A stretch of DNA of 64,000 nucleotides from Muscardinus avellanarius (lineage: Eukaryota > Chordata > Mammalia > Rodentia > Gliridae): contig OY726572.1 of the NCBI GenBank assembly GCA_963383645.1, positions 27,782,792 through 27,846,791 on the forward strand, written 5' to 3'. A program made the position numbers and the translations under genes. The notes below the pieces were generated by a model, which worked only from the letters and a program-made list of their open reading frames with translations, had not been told where the DNA came from and ran no database searches. The number at the start of each line of letters is the position of its first letter. The first letter of the stretch is position 1. This document shows positions 2,693-43,535 of this stretch, in pieces.

Positions 2693-4951
2693 CTTTGTAA
2701 CTTCTTGAGTCTCTGATGGATTTTTATCCCTTAGCCCATCCTACTCTAAATTGCTAATAGCCTGAGGCTTAGAGTCATCTGCTGATGAAGGTTTCCCTGA
2801 GTCTCGTTGGTAGGCCAATAATCACTGCTCCTTGAAAGTGATATTCTTTTGTTATTTAACAAAAATTCACTTGTTATTTTTGTGTACATGGTAAGGAGAG
2901 CAGAAAATATATGAGGGGAGGAGGAGAAGGTGCTTTCTAGTGATGATACCCAACCTTTCCTCTGTGGTCAGCTCTGGCTCCAAATATTTATATCACATTC
3001 AGTGAAACAAGAGAATGTAGCCAACAGCATGCATCTGATGCAGTAATGGTAGTGATCTCTTAGGTTTCTGGGGTGTGTCACCTGGAGGCTTCCAGTCTCA
3101 TACCATGTGTCTCTCAGAAACTCTTTTGAACTACATAGTCTCTTTGAGAGGACTTTGGTAAATGTTGGTGTATTCATTTGATTACATGTCCAGGGATGTT
3201 TGAATGCCTCTATTGATTGGTGTCCTGGTCAGCTGTCCACATGGCCTCCCCCTTAATATAACTCTCATCAGCCTCAGTAGAGATTTCTTTAAGATCTTTT
3301 ACATATATGTCTATAACCTTTTAGCTGTACCAACTGCTGCAGAAATCAATCAATCAGATTCCCCCAAAAAGCCAATAATGAAACCTCATTTCAGCAAATA
3401 GAACATTAAAAATCTTGCCTGAGGGAAGTGCAGGAGAAATCGGTCCTTTTTTTTTTTGCCTTTTGTTTGTTTCTTCTTAGATGCAGTTTTGTTGAGGAAG
3501 GGAAACAGAAACGTGGGGATTTTGAAAAACAAGTAATTTGTGCACAGAATAATCTAGTCCAGCACTATTTCAATCCCACATTAGGGTGAGTACCACCAAA
3601 AGTGCTTTCAAGGATATTTAAACCATTTTAATAAATATGCCATTTTGGGAATGAGTGCCCATTCTGTGCTTGAGAGAGTAAAAAGTTGGTAAGCATTAGA
3701 AAGAATGAAAGAAAGGACACTGGAGAAAATTAATTACATGATACTTGGTATTTATGAAGCCCAGCAGAGTATGGAGACCATATCTCATGTCTGACTCCCT
3801 AGGTAACCTAAACTGACTTTGTCTTTGATGATAATCAGATGAAGTATGCTTTCTTCCATTATCATGACTTGCGTTATCTGCAAAAGTGCCCCAGGGCAGC
3901 TCCCCCCTTTAGCCTATCCTTTGCGTAATATGTCAGGAACTGCATGTGGGCAAACTAAGCAGTGACAAGGATAGCCTGAGGAAACGATGATCCTTGTTCT
4001 TGAGATGTGCAGAATTTAGAAACATCTGGTGACTAGGCAATTAGATCAGATGTGCTTCACTTGGCCATAAACCTCCAGCTGTGTAAAGACACTCACTACT
4101 CCATCACCACCCATCTCCTACATAAACCACGCCTAGATCAGCCTCCCAAGAAGATGGCTCTGCTAGGATGATGGCACTCCATCTTTTTATCAGTTAGATC
4201 ATCTCAGCAAAGTTCTTTCTCTACCTCTGCCTTGCCTCTCCACTAATTGGCTTTTTTGTGGGGAGCAGTCCCACCCTGTAACATTAATTGGAAACACTGT
4301 TTATCATACAGTCTCTTGTATGATCTCTCGTTGTTGCCATCTAACCCCCTTTTCCAGTGGAAAATCAAAACTGTATCATCTGAATGACAGAAACAAAAGG
4401 TACAAATACCCCTTTGTAGATCTGGAGAAGTCACTAAACTGAGCTGTGTACCTTTACGTACTAAAAGGAAAATTGGTAACCCAGTATTTCCCCAATTTCC
4501 CCCTAAATGGACAAGTAGAATTTTAAGAGACAGAAAAAGGCCGTTTGTTCAACATAATGGATCAAACTGACTGATAATGGATGTCCCATCCAGAAGAGAC
4601 GGGCAAGTATTTGCTCATCTGTTCATTTACCCCCTAACCCAAATATTTCTACTGTTATTCTCCATTCCCGCACTCTATGGCAAACTCTGGGACAGATATT
4701 TAAGCTTATTCATGCATTAGGCCCTGTTGCTAAGGTACCCACAGCCAAAATGTGTGACACAGACTCATTAATATCAGAATATGTGCTTTAGAGAAGGTGA
4801 GTCCAATGTGCTAGGGGAGAGCTCAAAGAGAATAATTCATCAGTTCTAATCAGCTGCTATTGATTATTGCAGAAACCGTTAGGAGAATTCTGTGAAGTTC
4901 TCCAGTTGGAGAATCTTGCTTTCATTTGCTCATTCATTCATTTCTCATATA
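2693..4951. other. Long stretch without gene or clear repeat
   Basis: About 2.3 kb with no long ORF, no recognisable exon and no repeat family I can name. The only simple sequence is a short T run near 3450. Confidence 0.45.
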
Positions 4952-7405: not shown

Positions 7406-8187
7406 GTGCAGGCTGCTTTGGCTCATAGCACAGATGGCCAAAGCTCTCCAGGACTGGAGATGGCAATCTGTGATCCTTTATCAGGAGGCTGCTTATGTTC
7501 TGTTTTGTATTTTTATTACTTGCAAGATGAAAGTAGCATGAATACTCCTGTCCATGCCAGCTAGAAGCAAGTTAGTGACCTATAGAGAATCTTCTCTGAA
7601 ATAACAAAGCAGTAATAATGGCCTCCCAAGCCATTTTTTTCTCTTTTTATCTGCCCATACTGGTGTTAACCTACTCAAATTTATTGTCTCTTGATCCCCT
7701 TACCTTGCCCAGGTTATGAGCCCAGCATCACTAGCTGGACTGAATATATCTACATGCCAACATGTATTTGCTGAGAGATGATTGATCTCTACTAGGTTCC
7801 TTTAACTTCTTCGCATTGTGGTCTTATCCATTTCTAATTTGTTCTGCCCAGCTGTCCCTCATAACCTAATGTCAAGTTAATTAGAAGGGAGGATTGAGGC
7901 TCAGAATAATAGGAGTAAGGGCATTAGGGCAGGGATTTATGGTAGTAGTCCAGTAATTGATCTGATGTGATGAGAAGATTTGAGGAGCATAGATAGGGCT
8001 GACTTAAGGGACAGACTATATTGCCATTACAGGTTGAAGAGGAAGATGACAAATGAACATTATTAGGATTTTTCTTGGTAGTGAGTTATATAATCAAACT
8101 TTAGTAAAGCTAAGTGAAGAATATAATACTTGGGTGTCTCACAGTATCCAAAGACAGGAATGCAGCTTCCTTTTGGGAATAGCTTGT
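7406..8187. other. No feature recognised
   Basis: Unassigned sequence. The 109-codon plus ORF at 7235-7564 starts inside the SINE and is not a gene. Confidence 0.4.
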
Positions 8188-12466: not shown

Positions 12467-12615
12467 CTTTTTTTTAAAAAAAATTTTATTATTGCATTGT
12501 AATCATACATCTTAATGGGATAAAGGACTTGTGGATACATACAAAACACGTCACCCAATTAGCCCATCCCCGATCCCCACCCCATTCCCTCCCCATCCTT
12601 CCTTTCCATGCTTGG
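12467..12615 (-). mobile_element. Older L1 3' end, left part (host of the nested L1)
   Basis: A T/A-rich tail and ttattgcattgtaatcatac mark an L1 3' terminus read backwards. It stops at the TSD of the full-length L1 and resumes at 19133, where the next expected L1 3' UTR bases (gatacgtttgagtacatcat) continue. Confidence 0.85.
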
Positions 12616-12631
12616 CTTAATGATTGATTTT
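12616..12631. repeat. TSD of full-length L1, left copy
   Basis: cttaatgattgatttt, identical over 16 bp to 19117-19132. Confidence 0.95.
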
Positions 12632-12942
12632 TAAAAATTTTTTTTATTGGTGCATTATATTCATACAACTTATTGGGGGTAAAAAACTTGTGTGTACAAA
12701 CATGTACTCATCGCTGATTTAACCCCTACCCAAATCCCACCCCATTCCCTCCTCGTCCCTCCCTCCCTTGCTTGGCTTAGTGATTGACTTCGATATGTTT
12801 AAGTACATTACGAGCTTTAGAGATTTTCCTCTTCCCCCCTCATTTCTCCTCCTTTAGGTTGTCTTGTTTGCTCCTCTTTTCTCCCTAACTCTCACATATT
12901 AGGGAAAGCATCTGATTTCTTATTTTTTGTGCCTGACTAATC
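12632..12942 (-). other. L1 3' UTR and A-tail
   Basis: From the ORF2 stop to a short A-tail. Contains the G-rich block (minus-strand ggagggaatggggtgggatt) that recurs in the other L1 ends and in composite element A. Confidence 0.9.
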
Positions 12943-15900
12943 TCACTTAGCATAATGTCCTCCAGTTCCATCCATTTCCCTGAAAATGATGTAATTGAGT
13001 TTTTTTTTGATGGCTGAGTAAAATTCCATTGTGTACATATCCCACAGTTTTGTAATCCATTCATCTGTTGAGGGACATCTTGGCTGGTTCCATAGTTTGG
13101 CTATGGTGAATTGCGCAGCTATGAACATAGATACACATGCATTAGTTTGGTAGTTTGGTTTCTTTTCTTTTGGGTAGATACCCAACAGTGGTATTGCTGT
13201 ATCAAATGGTAGATTTGTTCCCATTCTGCTGAGGATTCTCCATACTGTTTCCCAAAGTGGTTGCACTAATTTGCAATCCCACCAACAATGTCTTAGAGTT
13301 CCCACTTCTCCACATCCTCGCCAGCATCTGTTGTTGTTTGTGTTTTGAATGATGGCCATTCTAGTTGGAGTTAGGTGAAATCTCAGGGTAGTTTTGATTT
13401 GCATCTCTCTGATTGCCAGTGATGTTGAGCATTTTTTCATGCATTTATTGGCCATTTGAATTTCTTCTTTTGTGAAGTGTCTATTTAGTTCATTTGTCCA
13501 TTTTGTTATTGGATGCTTTGTTTTCTTAGTGTTGAGTTTCTTGAGTTCTCTGTATATTCTAGATATTAGTCCTCTATCAGTGGTGTAGGTGGCAAAAATC
13601 TTCTCCCATTCTGTTGGCTCTCGATTGAGATTCTTGATAGTTTCCTTTGCTGAACAGAAGCTCTTCAGTTTCATGCAATCCCATGTATTGATTCTCCTTT
13701 TAATTTGTTGTGCCTTTGGGGTCTTGTTGAGGAAATGTTTGTCTGTGCCTATGTGTTGTAGTGTTGGACCTATGCCCTCTTCAAGGAGCTTCAAAGTCTC
13801 TGGTTTAATTTCCAAGTCTTTGATCCATCGTGAGTTGACTTTTGTACAGGTGAAAAAGTGGGATTAACATCCAATTTTCTGCATATGGTTAACCAGTTTT
13901 GCCGACACCATTTGTTGAAGAGGCTATCTTTATTCCAGTGTATGTTTTTGGCCTCTTTGTCAAAAATCAATTGGCTGAAAGTGTGTGGACTTGTTTCTGG
14001 GTCTTCTATTCTGCTCCATTGGTCTATATATCTGTTCTTTTGCCAGTACCATGCTGTTTTTATTACAATGGCTTTGTAGTATAGTTTAAAGTCAGGTATT
14101 GTGATTCCTCCTGCATGGTTTTTGTTGCTGAGAACTACGTTGGCTATTCTGGGCTTTTTGTTATTCCAGATAAATTTAAGGACTGATTTTTCTATGTCTG
14201 TGAGGAATGATCTTGGTAGTTTAATGGGCATTGCATTAAATCTGTAGATCACTTTTGGGAGGATGGCCATTTTAATGCTATTTATTCTGCCAATCCATGA
14301 ACATGGAAGGTCTTTCCATCTTCTAAGATCTTCTTTGATTTCTTTTTTCAGTGTTTTATCATTTTCTTTGTAGAGATCTTTTACCTCCTTGGTCAAGTTT
14401 ATTCCTAGGTATTTTTTTATTTTGTGGGAGATCCTGAGTGGAAGTGTTTTCTGAATTTCTTTTTCAGTGGATTTATGGTTGGTGTACAGGAAAGCTTCTG
14501 ATTTTTTAAGATTGATTTTGTATCCAGATACCTTGCTGAATTTGTTGATCAGTTCTATAAGCCTTTTGGTTGAATTTGTTGGGTTTTCTAAATATAGTAT
14601 CATGTCATCTGCAAATAGTGAAAGCTTAAGTTCTTCTTTTCCTATTTGTACTCCTTTGATTTCCTTTTCTTGCCTTATTGCTCTGTCTAGAGTCTCTAGT
14701 ACTATATTCAAGAGAAGTGGTGATAGTGGACATCCTTGTCTCATTCCAGTTTTTAGGGGGAATTCTTGAAGTTTTTCCCCATTTAATATGATGTTGGCAG
14801 TGGGCTTATTGTAGATTGCCTTAATAATGTTGAGATATGTTCCTTCTATTCCAATTCTCTGCAGTGTTTTTATCATAAATGGATGTTGAATTTTATCAAA
14901 TGCTTTTTCAGCATCTATTGAGATGATCATGTGGTTTTTGTCTTTGATTCTGTTTATATGATGAATTACATGGATTGATTTTCGTATATTGAACCAGCCT
15001 TGCATCCCTGGGATGAACCCTACCTGGTCATGGTGAATGATTTTCTTGATGTGGTTTTGAATGCGTGTTGCTAGTATTTTGTTTAATAGTTTTGCATTCA
15101 AGTTCATCAGAGATATAGGCCTGTAGTTTTCCTTCCTTGAACTGTCTTTATTCAGTTTGGGTATTAGTGTGATGTTGGCTTTATAGAATGTATTTGGGAG
15201 AGTCCCGGTTTTTTCTATTTCCCGAAATAGTTTGAGTAGTATTAGGATTAGTTCTCCTATAAAGGTTTTATAGAATTCACTTGGGAAACCATCTGGTCCT
15301 GGGCTTTTCTTTGATGGTAAGCTCTTTATTGCTATTTCAATCTCTTTGATTGTTATTGGTTGGTTTAAGTGTTCTATATCTTCTTGACTCAGTTTAGGAA
15401 GGTTGTATTTATCTAGGAAGTTGTCGATTTCCTCCAGATTTTCCATTTTGTTGGAGTATAGATTTTCAAAGTAGTTTCTGATAATCCTCTGGATTTCTAC
15501 GCTGTCAGTAGTAATGTCTCCTTTTTCATCCCTTATCTTCATAATTTGGGTTGATTCTCTCTTTTTTTTAGTTAGGTTGGCTAGTGGTTTATCAATCTTG
15601 TTAATTTTTTCAAGAAACCAGCTTTTGGTTTTGTTGATTTTCTGTATTGTTTTTTTATTCTCTATTTCATTAATTTCTGCTCTAATTTTAATAATTTCCT
15701 GTCTTCTGCTGGCTTTGGGGTTCAATTGTTCCTGCTTTTCAAGGGCTTTGAGGTGTGTCATAAGGCTATTTATTTGAAGATTTTCTGTTTTTCTTATGTG
15801 AGCACTCAGTGCTATAAATTTTCCTCTTAATACTGCCTTCAAAGTGTCCCAGAGGTTTTGATATGTTGTTTCTTTATTTTCATTTGTTTCTAGAAATTTC

Positions 15901-16712
15901 TTGATTTCACCTCTTACATCTTCTATGACCCATTCTTCATTCAGAAGTGTGGTGTTCAGTCTCAACATGTTTATGTTGTTTCTCTGGGTCTTCTTATAGT
16001 TGATTTCTAGTTTCATTCCATTATGGTCTGAAATGACACAGGGAAGTATGTAACATTTTTTTAATTTGCTAGTGCTCATTTTGTGTCCCAGGATGTGATC
16101 TATTTTGGAGAAGGTTCCATGAGCAGCTGAGAAAAATGTAAACTCTGCTGTAGTTGGGTGAAATATTCTATATGTGTACAACAGGTACATTTGGTTAATG
16201 GTGTTCTTTAGTTCTGAGACATCTTTACTGACCCTTTGTCTGGAAGATCGGTCTAGTATTGTGAGAGGTGTGTTGAAGTCTCCCAGTATTATTGTGTTGG
16301 GATTTATGTGTGACTTCATGTCACAAAGAGTTTGATTTATGAAAGTAGCTGCCCCTATGTTTGGGGCATAGATGTTGATTATTGTTATTTCCTCTTGCTG
16401 GACTATTCCTTTTACCAGTAAAATGTGACCTTCTTTGTCTCTTCTAATAAGTTTGGGTTTGAAGTCTAACTTGTCTAATATCATAGTTGCTACTCCTGCT
16501 TGTCTTCGAGTACCATTAGCATAGATTACCTTGCTCCAGCCCTTTACCTTGAGTTTGTTTCTATCTTTACTTGTAAGGTGTGTTTCTTGTAAGCAGCAGA
16601 TGGATGGATTCTGGCTTTTAATCCATTTTGCCACTTTATTTCTTTTTATTGGGGAGTTGAGGCCGTTTACATTCAGTGTGATTATAGAGAGATAATTTTT
16701 AATTCCCAACAT
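12943..16712 (-). pseudogene. L1 ORF2: endonuclease and reverse transcriptase, one frameshift
   Basis: ORF2p nicks target DNA and reverse-transcribes RNA in target-primed integration. Two overlapping minus frames cover it: 16712-13791 (973 codons) and 13815-12943 (290 codons), together about 1256 residues, the normal L1 ORF2 length. The first holds the APE-like endonuclease (NVNGLN near the start, then QETHL, GDFNTP, KIDHI and SDHN motifs) and the RT with FADDMILYL near residue 700. The second holds the cysteine-rich C-terminal region ([18 protein letters not shown]). Comparison with the copies near 27975 and 46795 suggests a lost G in a GG(G) run at about 13849-13851 (+ strand), which shifts frame in the region between RT and C-terminus. 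No other stop interrupts the 973-codon block. Confidence 0.93.
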
Positions 16713-16757
16713 GTTAAGTTCTTATTTCTGTTTGAGATACTGTTTATTCTTCTTTGC

Positions 16758-17677
16758 TTAGTTGTCTGCTGGATGGGAATTCTTGTTTCTTTGGTTCTGG
16801 CGTGTATTACCCATTTCCTCTTTGCAGTTAATCTCCTTGAGTATTTTCTCTAGCGTTGGTTTTGAAGACATAAATTCCTTCAGTTGCTGTTTGTCATATA
16901 AGCTTCTTATTTCCCCATCTAATTTGATGGATAGTTTTGCTGGGTAGGAAATTTTTGGCTGGACGTTGTTTTCTTTCAGAGTTTGGAATATGTTACTCCA
17001 AGCCCTTCTGGCTTTCATAACTTGGTTTGGGAAGTCTGGAGTGATTCTAATTGGTTTGCCTCTGTATGTCACGTGGACTTTTGTTTTTGTTGCCTTTAAG
17101 ATTCTCTCCTTAGCTTCCACATTAGTCATTTTGACAATTATGTGGCGTGGGGATCCTCTTCTCTGATCCTGTCTAAAGGGAGTTCTATAAGTTTCCTGGA
17201 CCTGTGTATCGACCTCTTGCTCTATGTTTGGAAAATTTTCTGCTATTACTTCCTTGAAGAGATTGTTGATCCCTTTGGTTTCACCTTCTTTTCCCTCCTC
17301 TATTCCAATTATTCTTAGGTTAGCTCTCTTGAAATGGACCCATATTTCTTCAATGTCAGATTCCTGCTGTTGGGGTTTTTTTTCTAAATTAGAAACTATG
17401 CGTTCATTTTTAGAATGATCATCTTCAAGAAGTGAGATTCTATTCTCCATGTGGTCTAATCTGTTGTTTATACTTTGAATTGAGGCCTTTACTTCATTAA
17501 TTGCATCCTTTATCTCTTTTTGACTCTCTCTCTAAATTCTTTTCAAAAGTCTTCTATTATTTCTAAAGATATTTTCCTAATTTGATCTTCTAGAGATCTT
17601 TGGATTTCTGTGTTATCAGATTATGATGTTGTGGGGTTGTTGGCATTCACTGCTCCATTGTTATTTCTCTTTCCCAT
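16758..17677 (-). pseudogene. L1 ORF1: RNA-binding chaperone protein, broken N-terminus
   Basis: ORF1p is the trimeric RNA-binding protein of the L1 particle. An open block of 230 codons (17450-16758) has the end of the coiled coil (MENRISLLEDD), the RRM part (RRGSPRHIIVKMTNVEAKER) and the C-terminal domain (RGKPIRITPDF). The likely original start is at 17677 (minus ATG). In that frame codon 19 is TAA, and the distance from 17677 to 17450 (227 bases) shows a frame change between them, near the GA-rich run at about 17510-17540. The natural product would be about 300 residues. Confidence 0.85.
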
Positions 17678-19116
17678 GATTTTGGAAGTTTGTGCCTTCT
17701 CTGGGTTCTTCCCTGAGTCACTACGAGTTCACTTAAGATGCTCTGGATCTCGAGTCTGTGGTATCTCAGTCACCACTACTCCTTTACTGGGTTGTATCAC
17801 AAAGTCTCAGACCCAGGGAGTCAATCAAGGCTGCTTAGACAGTGGGGGGTGCCAAGTTGTGCGTTCTCCAGTGAGGGGTTGTGACTATGGTATGATATCT
17901 CTGCCACTCCCTCACTGGGCTGCACTGCTAAAATTTCCGACCCAGGGAGACTATCTGCGCAAGTCCCTGGGAGTACAGTACTGGGATTTCTCCCCTAGGG
18001 GCCGCAATTTGACTCACGGTTGTTGAGTGCGCTGATGGAGCCATAGTGAACTCGGTGGATTTGCTGCTGCCGCCACTGGCAATATGGCACCCCTGCTACG
18101 CCCTCGGCCATGATGCGGCGTATTTCTTTTCTGGTTTTGAACTCTGCTCTGAGTCCTTGCCAGTTGTGCTGTGCCCGGCCCTTGGGAGCTTTATATATTC
18201 CCTGCACCAACAAAACTGCTGACTGCCACCCGGCTGTTCAGCACCTGCTCACCTTGACTCGCTGTCCACCCCTCCTTTCAGGCGCCTGGTGGCTGGTTGA
18301 GTGGGTTGGTCTAGGGCCGTCTGGTGAACTCGCTGCTGCCGCCAGCAGTAAGACGCTGCTTCTGCATCCTAGGCCGCGAGGCCAGAGTACCTCCTCTCTG
18401 GATTTGAGCTCTGTTTTGAGTCTCCCTCCTCTCTGGAGCCTGGTGCTGCTAGGGGAGATGTAGGCTGCGCCGCTCCGGCCGCTCTGTGCCGCAGCTCTGG
18501 CTGCTCTGCACCACGGCTCTGGCTGCTCCAGGTGCTCCGGCCACTCTGCACCATGGCTCTGGCTGCTCTGCACCGCGGGTCTGGCCACTCCAGCCACTCC
18601 GGCCGTTTCGCCATGCGGCTCTGGCTGCTCCGGCTGTTCTGGCTGCTCTGCTCCGGCTGCTCTGGCAGCTCTGCTCGGCTGCTCTGGCCGCTCCACTCAG
18701 CTGTTCTGGCCGCTCCGCTCCAGCTGCTCCAGCCGCTCCGCTCCGTGGCTCCGGCTACTCCGCGTCGCCGCTCCGGCAATTCCGCAACGCGGCTCTGTCT
18801 GCTCCGGCTGTTCTGGCCACTCCGCTTGGCTGCTCAGGCCGCTCCGCTCCGCGGCTCCCCCCAATCCGCACTGTGGCTCTGGCCACTCCGGCTGCTCCCG
18901 CCGCTCCACACCACGCGGGCGCGGCACTTCGGGCTGGTTTTTTTCTGGTCTCTTGTTTTTCCAGCCCTTTTTCTCTGTCCCTTGTATTTACCGTTTTTAT
19001 TTCTTTGCTGGTGGTGTTTTCTGGCTCTGAAAGGCACTGGTTTTGTGGTAGTAGAGTTGGATTGTTAGCGGGACTTGTAAGTGCCGCTTTCCTCCGTCGC
19101 CATCTTCCCGGAAGTC
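17678..19116 (-). promoter_or_regulatory. L1 5' UTR / internal promoter, CpG-rich
   Basis: About 1.4 kb upstream of ORF1, GC- and CpG-rich compared with the AT-rich surroundings. It begins gacttccgggaagatggcga (an ETS-like CTTCCGG and a YY1-like AAGATGGCG). A shorter relative occupies 44500-45326 in composite element B. Most of the extra length is a minisatellite at 18465-18940. Confidence 0.85.
18465..18940. repeat. GC-rich minisatellite in the L1 5' UTR
   Basis: About 475 bp built from short units such as gctctggctgctccgg and ccgctccgctccg, with a step of roughly 9-12 bases and irregular higher order. The related 5' UTR at 45100-45140 has only about 20 bp (ggctccagcggcatgtgcgg) at this place, so the array is an expansion within the L1 lineage. 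It opens long ORFs on both strands by composition alone. Confidence 0.88.
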
Positions 19117-19132
19117 CTTAATGATTGATTTT
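19117..19132. repeat. TSD of full-length L1, right copy
   Basis: cttaatgattgatttt, identical to 12616-12631. Confidence 0.95.
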
Positions 19133-40676: not shown

Positions 40677-40692
40677 AAAAATGGCTTTAATA
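40677..40692. repeat. TSD of composite element A, left copy
   Basis: aaaaatggctttaata, identical over 16 bp to 42368-42383. Confidence 0.92.
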
Positions 40693-40698
40693 CCTGCT

Positions 40699-41990
40699 GA
40701 GGGGTTAGGCCTGTGATGGGGCCAGTGAGGCCGGCATCAGAGCCTGCCGTGAGGCAAGGCCGGTGCTGGGGCCTCCGAGGCCGGGATTGGAGCCTGCCGA
40801 GGGGTTAGGCTGGTGCTGGGGCCAGTGAGGCCGGTATTGGAGCCTGCCATGAGGCAAGGCCAGTGCTGGGGCCTCTGAGGCCAGGATCGGAGCCTGCCGA
40901 GGGGTTAGGCTAGTGCTGGGGCCAGCGAGGCCAGCATCGGAGCCTGCCATGAGGCAAGGCCAGTGCTGGGGCCTCCGAGGCCAGGATCGGAGCCTGCCAA
41001 GGGGTTAGGCTGGTGCTGGAGCCAGCGAGGCCAGCATCGGAGCCTGCCATGAGGCAAGGCCAGTGCTGGGGCCTCCGAGGCCAGGATCGGAGCCTGCCGA
41101 GGGGTTAGGCTGGTGCTGGGGCCAGCGAGGCTGGCATCGGAGCCTGCCGTGAGGCAAGGCTCATGCTGAGGCCTCCGAGGCCGGGATAGGAGCCTGCTGA
41201 GGGGTCAGGCTGGTGCTGGGACCAGTGAGGCCAGCATCAGAGCCTGCTGTGAGGCAAGGCTGCAACTGGGGCCTCTGAGGCTGGGATCAGAACCTGCCAA
41301 GGGGTTAGGCCTATGCTGGGGCCAGTGGCCAGCATTGAAGCCTGCCGTGAGGCAAGGCTGGTGCTGGGGCCTCCGAGGCTGGGATCGGAGGCTGCCGAGA
41401 GGGGTTAGGCCAGTGCTGGGACCAGCAGCCAGCATCAGAGCCTTCCATGAGGCAAGGCTGCTACTGAGGCCTCTGAGGCCGGATCGGAACCTGCCGAGGG
41501 GTTAGACTGGGGCTGGGGCCAATGAGGCCATCATCAGAGCCGGCCGTGAGGCAAGGCTGGTGCTGGGCCCTCCAAGGCTTGGATTGGAGCCTGCTGAGGG
41601 GTTAGGCCGATGCTGGGGCCAACGGCTGGCACCGGAGCCTGACAGGAGGCAAGGCCACTACTGGGGCCTCCGAGGCTGGGATCGGAGCCTGCTGTGAGGT
41701 AAGGCTGGTGCTGGGGCCCCCGAGTCTGGGATCGGAGCCTGCCGAGGGGTTAGGCCAGTGCCATGGCCAGTGGCCGGCATCGGAGCCTGCTGTGAGGCAA
41801 GGCCACTACTGCGGCCTCCGAGGCCGGGATCGAAGCCAGCTGAGGGGTTAGGCCAGTGTGGGGGCCAGCGAGACCAGAAATGGGGCCTCCCATGAGGCAA
41901 GGCCACTGCTTGAGCCAACAAGGTCTGGATCAGTCCACCGGGTAGCCAGGCCACTATTGGGGCCGTCAAGAGTGGGATCAGTACTTGCAA
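40699..41990 (+). repeat. GC-rich tandem array, 100-bp unit made of two 50-bp halves
   Basis: ggggttaggc recurs at 40701, 40801, 40901, 41001, 41101, 41201 (as ggggtcaggc), 41301 and 41401, exactly 100 bp apart, then at 41498, 41598, 41746 and 41844. Each unit has two related halves of about 50 bp: one starts gaggggttaggc and the other starts gtgaggcaaggc or atgaggcaaggc; both end near atcggagcctgcc. About 12-13 units. From 41890 the units decay. CpGs are frequent. Confidence 0.93.
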
Positions 41991-41999
41991 CGTGGCATG

Positions 42000-42155
42000 T
42001 ACAGAGAAATATCACAGAAAATATAAATCAGATGCTTCCCCTAATCAGCAATAACTAGGAGGAAAGGGGCAACAGGAAGAGGTTGAGCTATAGAAAGGGC
42101 CCTATAGTGAAGCAACTAATGTGACCAATCAGAGGGTATGGAATAGTGGAGGACG
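42000..42155 (+). other. Unique linker segment of element A
   Basis: Lies between the array and the L1-derived 3' part. It starts near gtggcatgtacagagaaata and includes a CCAAT motif (gaccaatcagagg). I cannot match it to anything else in the window. It could be the remnant of whatever sequence founded the element. Confidence 0.5.
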
Positions 42156-42367
42156 GAGCCTCTTTAAAATGCAGTAGGTACATAAACAAATGTATCAAAG
42201 TCAATCACCAAAGAAGCATGGGATCGAGGGACGGGGAGGGAATGGGATGGGGGCTGGATGAGGGCTAATTGGATGATGTGTGCTTGTATATCCTCTCAAG
42301 TCTTGTATTCCAATGTGATTGATATATGACTACAATGCACCAATTAAAAAATAAATAAATTTAAATA

Positions 42368-42383
42368 AAAAATGGCTTTAATA
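42368..42383. repeat. TSD of composite element A, right copy
   Basis: aaaaatggctttaata, as at 40677-40692. Confidence 0.92.
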
Positions 42384-42532: not shown

Positions 42533-43535
42533 TACACATATATATGATATATAAAACACTTTTCCGAACTTTTAAACATAGCTGAAACTAATGCACATAA
42601 GAAACTAAACTAAATCTTATATTTGTCCTAATGCTAATTGTAACCCTAATTCTAAACGTAAGTGAAACTCTTATAATACACTGAAATTGAACGTAATTGC
42701 GCATATATATGACATAGGAAACTCTTACAATACACTGAAATTGAACATAATTGCACATATATATGATATGAAAACAAGTTTCTGAGCTTTTAAACATAGC
42801 TGAAACTAACGCATATAAGAAATTAAACTAAATGTTATATTTGTCCTAACGCTAACTGTAATACTATTTTGAACAAATGTGAAACTCTTACAATACACTG
42901 AAATTGAACATGATTTCACATATATATGACATGTAAAACACTTTTCCGAGCTTTTAAACATAGCGGAAACTAATGCATATAAGAAACGAACCTAAATGTT
43001 ATATTCGTCCTAACGCTAACTGTAATCTTAATTGTAAACGTATGTGAAACTCTTAAAATACACTGCAATTGAACATGATTTCACATATATATCATATGTA
43101 AAACACTTTTCTGAGCTTTTAAACATAGCTGAAATTAACTCATATAAGAAACTAAACTAAATGTTATATTCGTCCTAATGCTAACTGTAATCCTAATTCT
43201 AAACGTATGTGAAAGTCTTATAATACGCTGAAATTGAACATAATTGCACATATATATGACATGTAAAACACTTTTCTGAGCTTTTAAACATAGCTGAAAC
43301 TAATACATATAGGAAATTAAACTAAATGTTATATTTGCCCTAACGCAAACTGTAATTCTAATTCTAAACCAACGTGAAACTCTTACAATACACTGAAATT
43401 GAACATAATTGCACATATATATTATATGAAAACAATTTTCCGAGTTTTTAAACATAGCTAAAACTAACACATATAAGAAATTAAACTAAATGTTATACTA
43501 GTCCTAACGCTAACTGTAATCCTAATTCTACTTAT
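42533..43535 (-). repeat. AT-rich tandem array, ~164-bp unit
   Basis: The landmark catatatat(g) starts recur near 42535, 42702, 42757, 42918, 43082, 43248 and 43412, giving steps of 161-167 bp apart from one partial unit of about 55 bp (42702-42757). Each unit also repeats gagcttttaaacatagc, gaaattgaacat and cctaacgctaactgtaat. Copies differ by point changes and small indels, so the array is not recent. Confidence 0.93.

Follow-up and report, generated by a model that had tools for sequence, protein, structure and literature searches.

A probable L1-mobilised family of VNTR composite retrotransposons in a rodent genome

The DNA analysed here is a stretch of 64,000 nucleotides (the window), in which a GC-rich tandem array stands before an L1-like 3' end with an A-rich tail. 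The arrangement raises the question whether the unit is a chance junction, the remnant of an L1 that has lost its reading frames or a member of a composite retrotransposon family. An initial annotation had described it as a single unit bounded by target-site duplications (TSDs) and had placed it at 40677–42383, and these limits are exact to the base. The parts of the window copy are as follows.

40677–40692, plus strand: 5' TSD, 16 bp, identical to 42368–42383
40693–41863, plus strand: VNTR2, a GC-rich array, 5'-truncated in this copy (called by TRF)
41864–42011, plus strand: linker, made of degenerate VNTR2 units and a short family-specific stretch (from splitting into units)
42012–42351, plus strand: L1-like 3'UTR, whose first base corresponds to a point some 20 bases downstream of the ORF2 stop (from alignment to L1)
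42343–42367, plus strand: A-rich tail with AATAAA at 42350 (from the sequence)
42368–42383, plus strand: 3' TSD, 16 bp, identical to 40677–40692

The two TSDs, each reading AAAAATGGCTTTAATA (40677–40692 and 42368–42383), agree at 16 of 16 positions and enclose an element proper of 40693–42367, so the description as one TSD-bounded unit holds. The 5' TSD begins with AAAAA and is directly preceded by TTTT, which we take to be an L1-endonuclease-like site. A second AATAAA begins at 42364 and extends into the 3' TSD. TRF calls the array at 40693–41790 with a period of 100 (11.1 copies, 82% matches, score 1301) and also reports a period of 50 reaching 41863; the VNTR2 units of this copy are 50 bp long and belong to two types, whose alternation gives the 100-bp period. 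Aligned with an L1 3'UTR elsewhere in the window (45898–45565, minus strand), 42012–42351 is 71% identical, and the match begins immediately downstream of the point at which ORF2 of that L1 stops. The proposed fusion of a tandem array to an L1 3' end with an A-tail is thus supported by both TRF and the alignment. The linker, which had been called unique, turns out to consist mostly of degenerate array units.

When the unit was used as query against the genome (2.5 Gb) and the best 40 of 13,563 candidates were scored, the main matches of these 40, the window copy included, were 82–100% identical over 65–100% of the query. They are spread over many contigs, and 40 is a lower bound. Pattern scans allowing at most 3 mismatches, with reversed patterns as controls, were carried out for the two 3' parts and for two further domains, the tether and VNTR1, that lie upstream of VNTR2 in full-length copies. 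A 50-mer from the L1-like 3' end was found at 7,951 genomic places, a linker 50-mer at 4,393, a tether 42-mer at 1,927 and a VNTR1 44-mer at 1,067, with 0 places for each reversed control; these counts are not directly comparable with each other because monomers are repeated and conservation is unequal. A unique copy, which the initial annotation had named as an outcome that would speak against a family, is rejected by the places of the 3'-end 50-mer.

The 20 best matches to the full query after the window's own (L009–L028) were taken as further copies and are biased to array-bearing members because of this choice; loci taken from the patterns are exact matches, picked in chromosome order. Many copies have the array–linker–L1 junctions in common and most of them have their own TSD, so the genome search proposed at the outset does return a family, and the window element is a member of it. 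It could be argued that each junction arose separately, when an L1 3' end landed next to a GC-rich array, and nested insertions do occur, since one copy (L010) was inserted within the tether of another. However, the same junctions recur with different flanks, mostly in TSD-bounded units, and the probability of such chance nesting is practically negligible. A chance junction is likewise rejected by the recurrence of the junctions among the copies and the loci picked by the 3' end.

The order of domains in full-length copies is VNTR1, tether, VNTR2, degenerate linker, L1-like 3'UTR and A-rich tail. VNTR1 consists of GC-rich repeats of about 120 bp, the tether is about 570 bp long, and complete copies measure 2.5–4.4 kb to the start of the tail (n = 14). 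Array, linker and 3' end are present in all 20 of L009–L028, as expected from the choice of copies. The tether and VNTR1 are found upstream of VNTR2 in 15 of the 20, and the 5' ends of these copies lie inside VNTR1, at varying positions within a repeat. L012 is 5'-truncated in the tether, while L010, L013, L018, L023 and the window copy are 5'-truncated in VNTR2. The unit as first described is therefore one member of the family but an incomplete one, lacking the two 5' domains of full-length copies.

Extra bases between the tether and VNTR2 are present in 8 of the 20 copies and absent in 8, and hence at least two forms exist. VNTR2 and linker together span 1.25–3.25 kb (20 copies, with the window copy included and L026 left out); the family thus has the central GC-rich VNTR of variable length, with units of about 30–50 bp, that characterizes VNTR composites. 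In L026 the array is interrupted by other DNA, and similar DNA stands beside the 3'UTR-like piece in L024; we presume it to be an LTR-retroelement. In one locus (L058) VNTR1 is joined straight to VNTR2, and the absence of the tether may be due to deletion, recombination or splicing.

Stop codons interrupt every one of the six frames of the tether consensus, by which a protein-coding tether is rejected. The presence of a known structured RNA is rejected as well, an Rfam search of L014, which holds a full-length copy, giving 0 matches at the gathering score. Neither ORF1 nor ORF2 was seen in the element. Many dispersed, TSD-bounded copies together with a noncoding tether are what is expected of a non-autonomous non-LTR retrotransposon.

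The TSDs were assessed as exact repeats between the two flanks, with the boundary set at the 5' end of each of 21 copies (window copy included). Repeats of at least 11 bp flank 15 of the 21 copies but only 5 of 420 control pairs of mismatched flanks; for repeats of at least 9 bp the numbers are 19 of the 21 copies and 26 of the 420 pairs. The longest flank repeat is only 9 bp in L011, L013 and L020, and no exact flank repeat of even 9 bp was found for L022 and L026. In L018 a 13-bp repeat is found, but 83 bases downstream of the 3' end, which makes it doubtful as a TSD. The TSDs picked for listing start with A or TA in all 14 cases and are preceded by TT in 8 of the 14, presumably like the site of the L1 endonuclease. 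In L048 part of the array is inverted, with a 16-bp TSD outside the inversion; 5' inversion is the twin-priming signature of L1. As read from the sequence, the hallmarks of L1 mobilisation (TSD, A-rich tail and endonuclease-like site) are present.

Because the element contains tandem arrays, one might also think of segmental duplication or the growth of a satellite, in place of retrotransposition, as the way in which copies multiplied. However, the copies read have different flanks, their own TSDs and A-rich tails that differ in sequence, some are 5'-truncated and one carries a 5' inversion, which makes such a spread very improbable. The copies constitute a family with a common domain order, TSDs, arrays of variable length, 5' truncation and a 5' inversion with TSD. 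The window element is very probably a 5'-truncated copy of this family, a non-autonomous VNTR composite retrotransposon mobilised by L1.

It is possible to sketch how such mobilisation would proceed. RNA polymerase II transcription may start inside VNTR1, which is a candidate for this role because it is CpG-rich (observed/expected ratio 0.54–0.62 against 0.12–0.36 in the flanks, 4 copies) and holds the 5' ends of untruncated copies. The family RNA would end in the A-rich tail, and the L1 ORF2 protein, acting in trans, would reverse transcribe it at L1-endonuclease sites by target-primed reverse transcription. A poly(A) tail is probably the main requirement of mammalian L1, and mobilisation by L1 proteins would act through the A-rich tail of the family RNA, the L1-like 3'UTR being carried as the 3' domain of the element itself. 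The initial suggestion that the element uses L1 by carrying the L1 3' end stands in so far as an L1-like 3'UTR is carried; recognition by L1 through this domain is only putative, since its identity to the L1 3'UTRs compared is just 69–74%.

A candidate for the source of the proteins is located in the window itself.

12484–19117, minus strand: young L1, ORF2 split in this copy, with open frames 16758–17531, 13791–16721 and 12943–13863

With the ORF2 end of this L1 as query, all 40 of the 40 best-scored matches are 98–100% identical, itself included. A young L1 of the window type is likely to be the source of the enzyme for the family and not of its 3'UTR, and the lineage of this copy is a plausible source of the mobilising proteins. 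The 3' domain of the family is akin to L1 over its entire length. A search for the parent L1, with an ORF2 end joined to the family 3'UTR as query, found L1s of at most 86% identity over the whole query among the best 40 of 2,080 candidates. Identity in the 3'UTR, read for the top-scoring of these 40 L1s and for the window's own L1, is 74% between the family consensus and the former; in this comparison the 3'UTR is not close to a known L1 subfamily. Very probably the 3' domain and the L1s compared here have been diverging separately for a long time.

In the strongest rival explanation, the part made of VNTR1, tether and VNTR2 would be the former 5'UTR of an L1 from which both ORF1 and ORF2 had been deleted, the parent lineage being extinct or too diverged to be found and the family still being mobilised in trans. 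The family would then be an L1 derivative devoid of ORFs and not a fusion of parts with separate origins. Several features would agree with such an origin. In mouse L1 the 5' end is an array of GC-rich repeats and a unique tether comes next, as in the 5' part of the family, and VNTR1 with its varying 5' ends resembles the promoter monomer arrays of mouse L1; in the family, however, no ORFs follow the tether, and VNTR2 is located between the tether and the 3'UTR. The 5'UTR of the L1 at 12484–19117 has a GC-rich tandem array of its own, with 22-bp units (18468–18890, minus strand), which is lacking at the corresponding site of the second window L1 (45117/45124), and L1 5'UTRs in this genome therefore gain GC-rich arrays. 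The 3' part of the element is a whole L1 3'UTR. The ends and the machinery of L1 also serve HAL1 and other L1 deletion derivatives; HAL1 keeps ORF1, whereas the family has neither ORF1 nor ORF2 as far as seen. In two loci picked by the tether (L032 and L038), VNTR1 is directly bordered on its 5' side by a piece of L1 ORF2 on the same strand.

To these features is opposed the outcome of sampling 28 loci independently, each picked by one part of the family and read for the next (12 by the tether, 8 by the 3' end and 8 by VNTR1). In none of the 28 does an L1 ORF stand in place of the next part, which argues, within this sample, against the array being the 5' promoter of a full-length L1 lineage, the second outcome that the initial annotation had named as contrary to its proposal. 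In each of the 12 tether loci, which are exact matches and the first on contig C1, the tether is preceded by VNTR1 and followed by VNTR2, and none of the loci has ORF1; in the 3 whose sequence extends sufficiently, it continues into the linker. At the 3'-end loci the linker is present in 8 of 8 and the array in 7 of 8 (L046 is truncated in the linker), with ORF2 directly upstream in 0 of 8. The 3' flank of one of them, L047, shows similarity to L1 ORF2. The VNTR1 sample comprised the first 17 exact places on contigs C1–C3, of which 7 lie, by position, less than 300 bases from an exact tether place, 1 lies within L028, 8 were fetched and 1 was left out. Seven of the fetched loci lead to the tether, and one (L058) leads directly to VNTR2.

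The ORF2 fragments of L032 and L038 end at different places, one behind the ORF2 stop and the other inside ORF2, as expected of old L1s that were hit by insertion of the element, and they fit this interpretation. Comparison of tether, VNTR1 and VNTR2 with the two window L1 5'UTRs gives z values of 0.5 to 2.3 on the same strand. VNTR2 reaches 4.1 and 2.9 against the opposite strands of these 5'UTRs and 3.7 and 4.5 against the opposite strand of the tether, in both cases from short GC-rich scores, and no convincing similarity of the three domains to the two 5'UTRs was found. Taken with this evidence, an origin by deletion from an L1 is less likely than not, though it is a reading to be kept in mind.

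The reading of the family as a non-autonomous composite carried by L1 can be compared with known systems. Passages of PMC4432496 present SVA, LAVA, PVA and FVA as VNTR composites and call them specific to hominoid primates, gibbons included, which bears out the initial remark that known composites of this layout are described in apes. SVA and its gibbon sisters are also named in passages of PMC5753468. No rodent composite is named in the passages of PMC5857283 for four terms, and no such family outside hominoids was found among the listed titles and abstract openings of open-access papers. According to passages of PMC4432496, SVA is like the family in being non-autonomous with a central VNTR of GC-rich 30–50 bp units, and in having a 5' tandem repeat, TSDs and subfamilies of different ages. 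The same source describes LAVA as another composite built around a VNTR, whose 3' domain includes a piece derived from L1, as in the family, but with a 3' part made of AluSz and L1ME fragments with unique stretches (PMC4432496).

The family, in contrast, ends in a whole L1 3'UTR, and no 5' domain in common with LAVA was seen. It also differs from SVA, whose 3' end is derived from the HERV-K SINE-R, and its host presumably belongs to another mammalian order. The A-tail and the size of a few kb are common to SVA and the family. The 5' domain of the family consists of VNTR1, with its GC-rich repeats, and the tether; no CT-hexamer or Alu-like region was seen when full-length copies were read by eye, and membership in SVA or LAVA is rejected. 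SVA and LAVA are functional analogues of the family with no common domain seen, and by its hallmarks the family most likely works as they do, being mobilised in trans by L1.

By divergence, the copies fall into two subfamilies that differ in age. Among the first 21 copies, the 3' ends are 2.2–5.3% away from their own consensus. The 8 loci from the 3'-end pattern, a biased sample in that they are exact matches in a 50-mer, form a second and younger group, with pairwise differences of 1.6–3.3%, 0.9–1.8% from their own consensus and 16 diagnostic positions setting them apart. With substitution rates of 2–5 per site per billion years, the younger group would be roughly 2–9 million years old and the first 21 copies roughly 4–27 million years old. 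Matches of 77–84% to the 3' end are present in L010, L024 and L026, and those in L010 and L026 adjoin the array, which suggests that they may be older members of the family.

We consider it fairly likely that VNTR composites arose independently outside primates, in a mammal that is probably a squirrel-related rodent, in the form of an L1-dependent family that combines two GC-rich arrays with an L1 3'UTR, spread in successive waves to about 8,000 recognisable copies and includes a young subfamily. If this is true, the design of an array hitch-hiking on L1 would be a repeatable outcome of evolution and not a primate accident. An unrelated family of the same architecture would provide an independent test of why GC-rich arrays aid the carriage of RNA by L1, and also of what silences such arrays and whether L1 lineages repeatedly spawn such parasites. 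Because the family is abundant and partly young, insertion polymorphism and activity are directly testable.

Other repeats are present in the window. A 165-bp AT-rich tandem array (42718–43530, 4.9 copies, 88% matches) lies about 330 bases behind the 3' TSD of the window copy, and a 54-bp repeat begins at 42664. B1-like and ID-like motifs are also found and point to a squirrel-related rodent as the probable host. Behind the ORF2 of the L1 at 12484–19117, two L1 3'UTR pieces stand end to end (12484–12806, minus strand), the second being a partial copy.
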